DNA from: a virus
Direction: 5' to 3' (one strand)
Length of the DNA: 31,977 nucleotides
Virus record (IMG/VR): IMGVR_UViG_3300030060_003830
Coordinates: 1 to 31,977 of that record
Positions 18,770-29,853 of the stretch are shown here, piece by piece. Each line of letters begins with the position of its first letter. Position 1 is the stretch's first letter. Position numbers and translations under genes: made by a program. The notes beneath the pieces are model-generated. The model was not told the DNA's origin. It was given only the letters and a program-made list of their open reading frames with translations, and searched no databases.

Positions 18770-21814
<3,045 letters not shown>

Positions 21815-24274: not shown

Positions 24275-24640
24275 ATGATAGGTATTATTGGTAAGATTTT
24301 AGGTTCTGACAAAATTTTATCCAAGGGTATGGATTTGATTGACTCCATGCATACGTCTGAAACAGAAGCTATTGAAGCAAAAACTCAAGCAAAAGTAGAA
24401 CTGATGAAAAGCTACGCACCATTTAAAGTGGCTCAAAGGTATCTTGCTTTGATGTTTGGTGGTACATTTTTGATATCTTTTTTTCTTGTATTATCGATGA
24501 CAATGTTTGGTTATGGTAATACTATTGAAATAAAGATGGTCTTATCTGATTTTTATATTGGTGAGATAATGTTATTAATTATTGGTTTTTACTTTGGCGG
24601 TGGATTAGCTGAATCAATAAAAAGAAAGCCAAAAGAATGA
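24275..24640 (+). CDS. Holin, GTA-type 3TM-like
   Basis: This 121-residue protein has an amphipathic N-terminus (MIGIIGKILGSDKILSKGMD) and a helical, lysine-bearing middle with the family-like segment KSYAPFKVAQRYLALMFGG. Two clear membrane helices follow (about 55-76 and 91-110), and it ends in a basic tail (ESIKRKPKE). The layout matches the GTA_holin_3TM type found in marine phages. It should open the inner membrane so that the lysozyme encoded about 650 bases downstream can reach the cell wall. The stop overlaps the start of the next gene (ATGA). Confidence 0.78.
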   Translation: MIGIIGKILGSDKILSKGMDLIDSMHTSETEAIEAKTQAKVELMKSYAPFKVAQRYLALMFGGTFLISFFLVLSMTMFGYGNTIEIKMVLSDFYIGEIMLLIIGFYFGGGLAESIKRKPKE

Positions 24641-24816
24641 GAAAGTTTGCAAAAGTTCCAAAGACAAAAGGTGGTGTGCCAAAGAAATATGTGCGTGGCG
24701 CAAAGAATCCAAAAGCACGAGAAGCAGAGATAAAACGTACTGCTAAACTGTATCGACAAGGTAAACTCACACCAGCGATGATGGATAGAATCAGCAAGAT
24801 AAGGAGCAAAGGATGA
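24637..24816 (+). CDS. Small basic protein 1, 59 aa
   Basis: This 59-residue, strongly basic protein starts MRKFAKVPKTKGGVPKKYVR and ends RISKIRSKG. The second half is probably helical (REAEIKRTAKLYRQGKLTP). The start overlaps the holin stop and the stop overlaps the next start, both as ATGA. It is the first of six tiny Lys/Arg-rich proteins around the lysozyme. No family is recognised. Possible roles are nucleic-acid binding, a packaged basic peptide, or a membrane-active lysis helper. Confidence 0.7.
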   Translation: MRKFAKVPKTKGGVPKKYVRGAKNPKAREAEIKRTAKLYRQGKLTPAMMDRISKIRSKG

Positions 24817-25055
24817 GCAAAGCAGCCGTTGTAGCAAAGTATTCTAAGTCATCTGGTATATCAAAATCAACATTAGGCAAGGTATATCAAAGAGGATTAG
24901 GAGCATATTATTCTGCTGGTAGCAGACCCAAAGTATCAGCACATCAATGGGCGGCTGGAAGAGTACGGTCATTTGCAACAGGTAAAGGTGGCGCACGAAA
25001 AGCAGATGCCGATTTAATCCGAGGTGGTAAAAAGAAAAAGGCAAAAAAGAAATGA
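24813..25055 (+). CDS. Small basic protein 2, 80 aa (DUF5872-like)
   Basis: This 80-residue basic protein has the pattern SAHQWAAGRVRSFATGKGGA followed by RKADADLIRGG and an oligolysine tail (KKKKAKKK). I associate this W-x-x-GRV-x-SF...KAD-x-DL pattern with a small phage/viral domain (DUF5872-like) of unknown role. It is linked by ATGA overlaps to both neighbours. The start is preceded by AAGGAGCAAAGG. The lysine tail suggests binding to nucleic acid or another polyanion. Confidence 0.7.
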   Translation: MSKAAVVAKYSKSSGISKSTLGKVYQRGLGAYYSAGSRPKVSAHQWAAGRVRSFATGKGGARKADADLIRGGKKKKAKKK

Positions 25056-25177
25056 TGACGAAACAGCAAAAAGCAAAGGTCAAAAAGGTAGCATCAGGCT
25101 TGCGAAAGGCATCACGTTCACACGCTGGGCAAGCCAAAACATTACAATCTTTGTTGAAAAAGAAAGGTAAGAAATAA
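25052..25177 (+). CDS. Small basic protein 3, 41 aa
   Basis: This 41-residue peptide starts MMTKQQKAKVKKVASGLRKA and ends LKKKGKK. It has almost no acidic residues and would form a cationic amphipathic helix. It starts inside the upstream stop (ATGA) and its stop shares a base with the next start (TAATG). No family is recognised. It was accepted as a gene because of the unbroken coupling chain and the basic composition common to the whole cluster. Confidence 0.6.
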   Translation: MMTKQQKAKVKKVASGLRKASRSHAGQAKTLQSLLKKKGKK

Positions 25178-25302
25178 TGCCAGGTAAAAAACTATCGCCA
25201 AAGCAAATGAAAATAGCCAGAGTAGCATCACCAAGAAATAAAATTACAGGTGCTGATTTTAAAAAACTAAAAAAAGGCAAGAAGAAAAATGGACGTGGAT
25301 AA
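25177..25302 (+). CDS. Small basic protein 4, 41 aa
   Basis: The peptide starts MPGKKLSPKQMKIARVASPR and ends in a lysine-rich tail (KKLKKGKKKNGRG). Its segment KIARVASPRNKITGADFKKL looks like a short conserved phage peptide, but no family is recognised. It starts by one-base overlap with the upstream stop and overlaps the lysozyme gene by 14 bases. Its very high charge is comparable with the neighbouring basic proteins. Confidence 0.6.
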   Translation: MPGKKLSPKQMKIARVASPRNKITGADFKKLKKGKKKNGRG

Positions 25303-25756
25303 ACTGCGAGAGCAGTTAGCCGAAGACGAGGGCTGTAAATACGAGATATATCTTGACCATTTGGGATTGCCTACATTTGGTATTGGACATTTAATTACCA
25401 AAGATGACCCAGAATGTAACATGGAAGTTGGTACAGTTATTGAACAGAATCGTGTGCAGTCTGCTTTTAATTTAGATATTGCTGTAACGATGGAAGATTG
25501 TCACAGATTATACAAAGACTTCAAAAAGTTGCCAGAGGAAGTTCAATTAATTGTAGCAAACATGATGTTTAATCTGGGATATCCAAGACTATCTAAGTTC
25601 AAAGGCATGAAGGCAAATGTAGATGCACGAGATTGGTCTGGTGCTGCCGATGAAATGGTAGATTCAAAGTGGTACACACAAGTGCCAAACAGAGCAAGAC
25701 GTTTAGTTGAAAGAATGAGACAGGTAGATGGTAGCCAAACGGTTTCAGAATCCTAA
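25289..25756 (+). CDS. Endolysin, T4-type lysozyme (GH24)
   Basis: This 155-residue muramidase cleaves peptidoglycan during lysis. The T4 catalytic triad is present with exact spacing: E14, D23 and T29 in EDEGCKYEIYLDHLGLPTFG, followed by IGH. The helical C-terminal domain has the usual VANMMFNLGYPRLSKFKGM segment and an Arg-rich end (VPNRARRLVERMRQV). There is no signal peptide, so export depends on the holin at 24275-24640. It is embedded between genes for tiny basic proteins, overlapping the one before by 14 bases and the one after by 29. Confidence 0.95.
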   Translation: MDVDKLREQLAEDEGCKYEIYLDHLGLPTFGIGHLITKDDPECNMEVGTVIEQNRVQSAFNLDIAVTMEDCHRLYKDFKKLPEEVQLIVANMMFNLGYPRLSKFKGMKANVDARDWSGAADEMVDSKWYTQVPNRARRLVERMRQVDGSQTVSES

Positions 25757-26015
25757 AGGTGGATTGAACGCTGCTGGTAGAGCGCACTTCAAGCGTACTA
25801 CAGGAGCTAATTTAAAACGTCCTGTAAAATCGGGAGATAATCCAAGACGCGCTAGTTTTTTAGCAAGAATGGGGAATGTGAAAGGGAAAGAACGTGACAG
25901 TAAGGGAAAGCCTACGAGATTACTACTTAGCCTTCGTGCGTGGGGTGCAAGCAGTAAAGCGGATGCTCGTGCGAAAGCAGCAGCCATCAGCAAACGAAAC
26001 AAAGCCAAAAAGTAA
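25728..26015 (+). CDS. Basic protein 5, 95 aa (DUF6321-like)
   Basis: This 95-residue protein carries FQNPKGGLNAAGRAHFKRTT followed by RRASFLARMGNVKG and a C-terminal LRAWGASSKADARAKAAAIS stretch. I associate this GGLxAxGRxxFKRxTGxxLKxPV...RRxSFxARM pattern with a small DUF6321-like family seen in phages and marine metagenomes. Its function is unknown. It is highly basic and ends KRNKAKK. It overlaps the lysozyme by 29 bases. The lack of membrane segments argues against a holin role. Confidence 0.72.
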   Translation: MVAKRFQNPKGGLNAAGRAHFKRTTGANLKRPVKSGDNPRRASFLARMGNVKGKERDSKGKPTRLLLSLRAWGASSKADARAKAAAISKRNKAKK

Positions 26016-26055
26016 AGAAGTACAGTATTTAAAAGGTACAAAAAAGGAGAAGAAA

Positions 26056-26166
26056 ATGTATGGTTCTATGAGAAGTAAACCAACCAAATCAAAAGCTATG
26101 AAAAAGCAAGCTGCTACAGCCATGTCTATGAAGAAAGCTAAGAAAAAACCTAAGAAAAAGATGTAA
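26056..26166 (+). CDS. Small basic protein 6, 36 aa
   Basis: This 36-residue peptide, MYGSMRSKPTKSKAMKKQAA to KKAKKKPKKKM, is nearly one third lysine with many methionines and alanines. The frame is open upstream to 25894, but the ATG at 26056 has a clear AAGGAGAAGAAA ribosome binding site and is chosen. It is the last gene of the late unit. The terminator at 26384 lies beyond a convergent gene. The function is unknown; it resembles histone-like or protamine-like tails only in composition. Confidence 0.6.
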   Translation: MYGSMRSKPTKSKAMKKQAATAMSMKKAKKKPKKKM

Positions 26167-26361: not shown

Positions 26362-26383
26362 GGATTTCCTCCCTATTAAAACT

Positions 26384-26422
26384 CCCTGTGTAGGTTTGAT
26401 TGTTGCCTACACAGGGTTTTTT
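26384..26422 (+). terminator. Strong rho-independent terminator, probably bidirectional
   Basis: A perfect 11-bp stem (CCCTGTGTAGG with CCTACACAGGG), an 11-base loop and six T residues on the plus strand are present. On the minus strand the stem is followed by GAGTTTT, so it can also end the leftward unit, whose last gene stops at 26424. Confidence 0.88.
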
Positions 26423-28866: not shown

Positions 28867-29051
28867 AATTAGAAGATTATATAAAAGAAAAAGGTATTAG
28901 CAGACGTTACTTTGCCAAAATAGCCAAGCTAGATAACTCAACCATTACTCTTTTAATACAAAAAAAACGAAAACCAAGTCAGGACACACTTACCAAAATC
29001 TTTATTGCTACTAAAGGTGAGGTAACAGCAGACGATTTTTATCATGGTTAA
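28863..29051 (+). CDS. XRE/Cro-like repressor, 62 aa
   Basis: This 62-residue protein is a single helix-turn-helix domain: YIKEKGISRRYFAKIAKLDN with recognition helix STITLLIQKKRKPSQDTLTK, then ATKGEVTADDFY, the typical ending of the fold. It should bind an operator as a dimer. It is coupled to the upstream winged-helix gene (ATGA) and overlaps the next gene by eight bases. Likely targets are the palindrome at 28488-28502 or the sites near 30380-30430; this is inference. Confidence 0.85.
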   Translation: MKLEDYIKEKGISRRYFAKIAKLDNSTITLLIQKKRKPSQDTLTKIFIATKGEVTADDFYHG

Positions 29052-29853
29052 TCCATATAAGCTGCCAGATGGAAAAGTATTAATTAGCCTGTCTGGTGGC
29101 AGAACATCTGCCTATATGCTTTATCAAATACTTAAAGCTAATGATGGGTTGCGTGATGATGTTGTTGTTGCCTTTGCTAATACAGGAAGAGAAATGCAAG
29201 GAACAATAGACTTTATAAAAGAAATACAAAGCAGATGGAACGTCAATATTCGTTGGCTTGAATATATAAAAGCTAAACCAAAATACCAAGAGGTAAATCA
29301 CAATTCTGTTAGCTTAGATGGTAAACCATTTATGGAGATGATTGATAGTAAGTCAGCTAATAAATTTTTACCAAATCAAAATATGAGATTTTGCACCCAG
29401 GAGTTAAAAGTAAAAACAATAAAACGATTTCTCGTAGGTATGGGCTGGAAGCGATGGATTAATACTGTTGGAATCCGAGGTGATGAGCCAAGACGATTAA
29501 AAGAATCTACAGACAATAGATGGGTGAACTGGTATCCGATAGCTGAATCAAAAGAAACTGTTAGAAATGTAAATCAGTTTTGGAAACAACACTCATTTGA
29601 TTTAAAGATTATGAAAGGGTCTGGCAACTGTGATGGTTGTTTTTTGAAATCAGAAGCTACATTAGCAGCAATGATACGAGAGTATCCAGAAAGAATGAAA
29701 TGGTGGGACGATATGGAGCAGATGACAGGCGGTTCGTTCCATAGAAATAGAACATATAAAACTTTGTCTGATTTTGTAAATAAACAAAGTGATTGGATTT
29801 TTGATAGTCAATCTTATTTATGTCAGCAAGATGATGGAGAATGTAGTGGTTAA
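29044..29853 (+). CDS. PAPS-reductase-like PP-loop ATPase, 269 aa
   Basis: This member of the adenine-nucleotide alpha-hydrolase (PP-loop) superfamily shows the pyrophosphate-binding motif SGGRTS (residues 17-22) and FANTGRE at 44-50. Cysteine C117 sits in RFCTQELK and C196-x2-C199 in GNCDGCFLKSE. The segment GIRGDEPRR lies at 143-151. Two more cysteines, C260 and C267, are near the C-terminus. The cysteine set suggests a metal or Fe-S cluster. Phage proteins of this type are usually called PAPS reductase, but the substrate is unknown; related PP-loop proteins act in nucleobase thiolation or DNA sulphur modification. It is embedded between a regulator and an Hjc-like nuclease. Confidence 0.82.
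   Translation: MVNPYKLPDGKVLISLSGGRTSAYMLYQILKANDGLRDDVVVAFANTGREMQGTIDFIKEIQSRWNVNIRWLEYIKAKPKYQEVNHNSVSLDGKPFMEMIDSKSANKFLPNQNMRFCTQELKVKTIKRFLVGMGWKRWINTVGIRGDEPRRLKESTDNRWVNWYPIAESKETVRNVNQFWKQHSFDLKIMKGSGNCDGCFLKSEATLAAMIREYPERMKWWDDMEQMTGGSFHRNRTYKTLSDFVNKQSDWIFDSQSYLCQQDDGECSG

Follow-up and report, generated by a model that had tools for sequence, protein, structure and literature searches.

The late gene block and its basic proteins

The DNA analyzed here, referred to as the window, comprises 31,977 bases and represents positions 1 to 31,977 of the virus record IMGVR_UViG_3300030060_003830 in IMG/VR. It features a long plus-strand block of head, tail and late genes, the final genes of which are six small open reading frames (ORFs A to F, 24637-26166, all on the plus strand) surrounding a gene for a GH24-type endolysin (lysozyme; 25289..25756, plus strand, 155 aa, match to PF00959). 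ORF A (24637..24816, 59 aa, net charge +17), ORF B (24813..25055, 80 aa, +19), ORF C (25052..25177, 41 aa, +14) and ORF D (25177..25302, 41 aa, +14) precede the endolysin gene, and ORF E (25728..26015, 95 aa, +23) and ORF F (26056..26166, 36 aa, +14) follow it. ATGA overlaps occur at three junctions (H/A, with H being the gene before A, A/B and B/C), and the C/D junction reads TAATG; D overlaps the lysozyme gene by 14 nt, the lysozyme gene overlaps E by 29 nt, and a gap of 40 nt separates E from F. A hairpin with a T-run (26377..26422, -24.4 kcal/mol, z -6.15), bordered by A and T runs on both sides, is probably a bidirectional terminator between the late plus-strand genes and the convergent minus-strand genes.

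Directly 5' of ORF A, a 121-aa membrane protein belonging to phrog_9646 and representing a possible holin is encoded at 24275-24640; it was matched in only three of the 17 cassette-bearing relatives described below (L002, L006 and L010) and in the others it appears to be absent or substituted by another gene. Elsewhere in the window, a probable tail fibre protein with long collagen-like GPTGPT repeats (18770-21814) and a protein starting with ISLSGGRTSAYML (29044-29853), which by its sequence resembles PAPS reductase / nucleotide hydrolase-type enzymes, were identified.

The proteins encoded by ORFs A to F feature pI values between 11.0 and 12.0 and net charges of +14 to +23 apiece, corresponding to +0.24 to +0.39 per residue, compared to -0.14 to +0.03 for the 21 other window genes checked. 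The initial annotation, which had described six basic proteins of 36-95 residues around the lysozyme, mostly linked by ATGA or TAATG, was thus confirmed; the oligolysine tails that it ascribed to nearly all of them were found as Lys-rich C-termini in five of the six, ORF A ending in RSKG instead.

A search anchored on the lysozyme returned 80 IMG/VR loci, and the order and frame of A to F were kept in 17 independent IMG/VR contigs (L002-L015, L045, L068 and L074), with C and/or D being absent from three of these 17 related contigs (L002, L045 and L068). Pooled pairwise dN/dS values, calculated over 15-18 sequences per family (C, n=15; D, n=16; F, n=18), amounted to 0.083 for A, 0.125 for B, 0.097 for C, 0.099 for D, 0.113 for E and 0.181 for F, a range comparable to the value of 0.076 obtained for the lysozyme. 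Hence, neither of the two outcomes that the initial annotation had named as fatal to its proposal, namely frames not conserved in related phages or a ratio near 1 for the smallest ORFs, was observed. The charge contrast with the 21 other genes, the recurrent order and the low dN/dS values indicate that A to F are not chance ORFs; they are real, conserved genes under purifying selection. That they represent spurious or decaying small ORFs of AAA-rich DNA, in which frames could open by chance through low-complexity lysine codons, is virtually inconceivable and already refuted by the selection test (0.08-0.18 for 15-18 sequences), along with the kept order and the Pfam families assigned to two of the proteins.

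Protein families and the wider cassette set

ORF E matched DUF6321 (PF19846) with 84.2 bits (gathering cut-off 28.5; 1e-23; profile positions 2-72 of 72), and ORF B matched DUF5824 (PF19141) with 49.8 bits (gathering cut-off 25; profile positions 63-123), both above the respective cut-offs. In contrast to the initial assignment of two of the proteins to DUF5872-like and DUF6321-like families, only the latter was retained, since none of A to F matched DUF5872 in Pfam at E-values up to 1; the remaining small proteins, considered unrecognised, did include three (C, D and F) with no confident family. A, B and E fall into phrog_38321, phrog_28338 and phrog_4689, respectively, all of which are families annotated as being of unknown function. 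Neither NCBIfam nor the PADLOC anti-phage defence models (E up to 0.1) yielded any match. E spans the whole DUF6321 domain and stands alone, whereas in many relatives the domain forms the terminal part of a large protein. B represents only the C-terminal half of DUF5824, and A possibly supplies the rest as a separate gene.

A is an obligate partner of B, being located beside it at all 106 loci featuring A (order A-B at 101 and B-A at 5), and the three cases of B without A were all found at contig ends. Joined together, A and B align to positions 1 to 123 of the DUF5824 profile, and in the cultured phage HTVC111P the joined pair scores 2.8 bits above B alone. A split DUF5824 gene was nevertheless rejected as proven, because shuffled and reversed versions of A fused to B likewise extend the Pfam alignment (reversed A plus B, 52.3 vs. 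48.2 bits). A possibly represents the N-terminal half of DUF5824, as suggested only by a start that invariably falls at the VPKKY motif and by the total A-B pairing.

AlphaFold2 predicted a compact four-helix structure with a basic tail for E (pLDDT 89.2) and three helices for B (pLDDT 82). E had no PDB match, either by sequence or by predicted fold, and B had no significant one; relatives of known structure were accordingly discarded for both, there being none by sequence and none convincing by fold. Fold searches with the two models recovered no known DNA-binding fold, and the significant matches of the E fold in a viral library were DUF6321-type proteins.

To place these families in a wider context, loci were fetched with the E, B and G profiles, and 321 sequences, metagenomic contigs being mostly fragments, were scanned with 12 family HMMs, iterated from small seeds, and with the lysozyme. 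Retrieval by family biases the counts, and the density test therefore leaves out the anchor family. Up to 1.5 kb from the anchor, members of other families occurred at a density of 0.63 per kb, compared to 0.0068 per kb elsewhere, an about 90-fold difference, and all 393 of 393 cassette neighbours (families A-N) were encoded on the same strand as the anchor. Accordingly, A to F form part of a larger set, comprising at least 12 families of small basic proteins, which are mixed and matched among unrelated marine phages. The claim of a coherent late system made in the initial annotation was supported by this clustering, by the single strand and by the position in late or head regions; regarding its suggestion of protamine-like condensation or packaged peptides, either nucleic-acid binding of this type or packaging would be the best reading.

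The combinations differ from phage to phage: E, I, G (phrog_31838) and K (the pair phrog_17747/phrog_14910) are present in EXVC031P, A, B and G in P-HS2, E and J (phrog_16028) in KBS-P-1A, J and E in MEP301, and both E and J in the cultured cyanophage S-TIP37, while in HTVC111P the lysozyme gene is immediately followed by G, A and B. The phrog_16028 profile itself returned 0 matches in seven phage records, one of which has J visible by other means, and this zero count is therefore uninformative. The J and E domains each match phrog_11180 and phrog_28131, indicating that they also occur within one protein. D-family matches were obtained at 74 of the fetched loci. At four of the loci (L271, L289, L290 and L291), a D-like ORF is located between two ORFs matching phrog_17747 and phrog_14910, resembling a K gene split by a cassette. 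Extra basic cassettes between C and D were often seen (L004, L006, L007 and L015); in close relatives, such small insertions encode a G protein (L004, 4236-4382), a Tyr/His-rich protein with a Lys-rich C-terminal tail (L006, 9711-9899) and a basic protein of 104 aa (L015, 4116-4430).

Clustering by gene sharing fused 196 loci into one component through widely shared genes, and the independence of the phage backbones consequently rests on their distinct capsid, portal and terminase families. A bacterial origin of the cassettes was dismissed: among 84,980 species genomes, the phage-type E pattern picked out 11 relatives, every one on a MAG contig and some accompanied by other cassettes. Our literature search found no paper naming DUF6321 or DUF5824 and no description of such a basic-protein toolkit.

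Placement among head genes and relation to lysis

Outside the window clade, the large neighbours of the cassettes comprised major head proteins (phrog_267, 1328 and 371), portals or adaptors (phrog_332, 1216 and 12082), scaffolds (phrog_3927 and 1052), terminases (phrog_2 and 38) and tail proteins, representing several unrelated families. Among cultured T7-like phages, which include pelagiphages and cyanophages, J-E is located between scaffold and capsid genes in HTVC031P; KBS-P-1A uses the same slot with the order E-J and psbA alongside, and CRP-118 carries J in the slot of the HTVC031P pair, with an HNH gene alongside. J-E was also found between capsid and tail tube genes in P-SCSP1q and beside the portal gene in MEP301. 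This placement among head genes favours a head or DNA role and disfavours one in lysis.

The initial annotation had also considered cationic lysis helpers, which would act on the envelope together with the lysozyme. In the lineage of the window, this idea is suggested by the endolysin being surrounded by A to F and by the membrane protein encoded just upstream, but linkage of the cassettes to lysis genes was not borne out across lineages: only 28 of 233 cassette anchor loci had a lysozyme of this GH24 type, the one type tracked, within 2 kb. Among the 80 lysozyme loci, 18, constituting the window clade, carried the window set whole or in part, 12 of the other 62 had a member of at least one cassette family no more than 3 kb away, and the remaining 50 of the 80 had no cassette within that distance. 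The endolysin is thus a neighbour of the basic set and not part of it. Furthermore, a membrane or lipoprotein segment would be expected of lysis accessory proteins, whereas no hydrophobic segment was detected in A to F (top 19-residue mean hydropathy 0.19). On synteny and hydropathy, a lysis role was therefore rejected, and we regard it as very improbable.

A possible role in the phage head

We tentatively favour the reading that A to F are late, head-associated DNA-binding proteins, at least part of which would be packaged, and that they function like, without being homologous to, the internal proteins of T4. As one lineage's version of the small basic cassette set, they would be expressed from the 3' end of the late operon; the Lys/Arg-rich folded modules (E, and B with A) and the disordered oligolysine tails would bind DNA during head filling, and at least part of the set may be packaged with the genome or loaded onto it. 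Once packaged or loaded, the basic proteins could assist in neutralising the DNA or in organising it, or could reach the next host along with the genome, in the manner of T4's basic internal proteins. That the proteins bind DNA, that the stand-alone peptides are packaged and that they influence packaging or ejection is all inferred. One copy each of A to F contributes a charge of +101; at a genome size of 34 kb, assumed from relatives, approximately 67 copies of the set would balance one tenth of the phosphates.

In T4, ipII and ipIII are basic and adjoin the GH24 lysozyme gene e; about 300-370 copies of each are packaged, they bind DNA when the salt concentration is low, the phage can dispense with them, and they differ from one phage to another (PMC9026906). 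IPI, IPII and IPIII share with A to F the small size, the basic character, late expression and the variable composition of the set, and ipII and ipIII also the position beside the lysozyme gene. However, ipII and ipIII begin with the capsid targeting sequence MKTYQEFIAEA, and A to F lack such an N-terminus, which places them outside the T4 internal-protein family; moreover, their charge density is far above that of the T4 proteins, and no sequence relation between the two groups was shown. The basic DNA-binding virion proteins of the chlorella virus PBCV-1 offer an analogy in the idea that proteins may help to neutralise packaged DNA (PMC3281028), although those are large proteins of a eukaryotic virus and A to F are tiny phage proteins.

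Regarding virions, the cyanophage S-CREM2 encodes a divergent C-terminal DUF6321 domain (109291-109512) within gp137 (108049-109521), and four unique peptides of this ORF (4.1% coverage) were reported from the proteome of CsCl-purified virions (PMC10665884). With 490 aa and a net charge of -20, gp137 is a large and acidic protein; a virion protein therefore carries the domain, and packaging of the small proteins is not thereby established. T4 internal proteins are packaged in many copies, whereas for DUF6321 only this large tailed protein has been reported in virions. The relative SSM1_115 of S-SM1 was probably not detected in virions, because its record, in which other proteins are marked as virion structural, labels it only as hypothetical. 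In a predicted trypsin digest, each of A to F retains no more than one to three peptides in the range of 7-35 aa; routine virion proteomics would thus often overlook them, a possible reason for their going unnoticed. Adjoining the DUF6321 protein of S-CREM2, gp136 (L347, 1302-2015) is a Lys-rich protein of 237 aa with a net charge of +23, for which eight peptides are listed in the published virion proteome (PMC10665884).

The size, acidity and low coverage of gp137 and the probable non-detection of SSM1_115 in virions weigh against the favoured head-protein reading, as do the missing T4-type targeting sequence and the fold searches, in which no known DNA-binding fold was recovered. Furthermore, tailed phages are widely held to neutralise packaged DNA via ions and polyamines rather than proteins, and evidence for a substantial share of basic proteins in this is stated to be lacking (PMC3281028). 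A broader and rather doubtful proposal is that the toolkit of at least 12 horizontally re-assorting families, shared by marine tailed phages in lineage-specific combinations, is the phage counterpart of protamines or histones and arranges the DNA inside the head or on its way there. If true, the ion-neutralisation view would be called into question for the most numerous phages of the sea, since abundant pelagiphages and cyanophages would possess a recurring polycationic toolkit, and several uncharacterised families with hypothetical members only would gain a testable role.

The main rival, which we consider possible but on the unlikely side, is that the proteins are late nucleic-acid binders acting inside the infected cell only, where host DNA, replicating DNA, mRNA or ribosomes would be their targets, without being packaged. 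Charge by itself predicts RNA or DNA binding, and polycationic proteins may be equally able to bind RNA; the lack of a targeting sequence, the status of SSM1_115 and the occurrence of J or E in variable slots with accessory genes (psbA in KBS-P-1A and HNH in CRP-118) are likewise compatible with an intracellular role. Against it stand the repeated head-module placement in several lineages and the presence of gp137 in virions.

Improbable, in our view, are minor or transient head-assembly factors associated with scaffold or portal, in which the charge would serve protein-protein contacts and not DNA. J and E do adjoin scaffold, portal and capsid genes, and the E model is compact and folded, but the same families accompany capsid, portal and scaffold proteins of several unrelated types and also lie near the lysozyme, so that a specific protein partner would be hard to keep; the oligolysine tails also argue against this reading. 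A capsid decoration role for E found no support, since P-SCSP1u carries the E gene, 100% identical to that of P-SCSP1q, and its cryo-EM structure reports no decoration protein (PMC10575957); this fits an unordered internal location of E.

In some Pseudomonadota, DUF6321 was found behind a histone H1-like Lys/Ala tail in chromosomal genes (L338, 1402-2016, and L339, 1402-2037, both on the minus strand).
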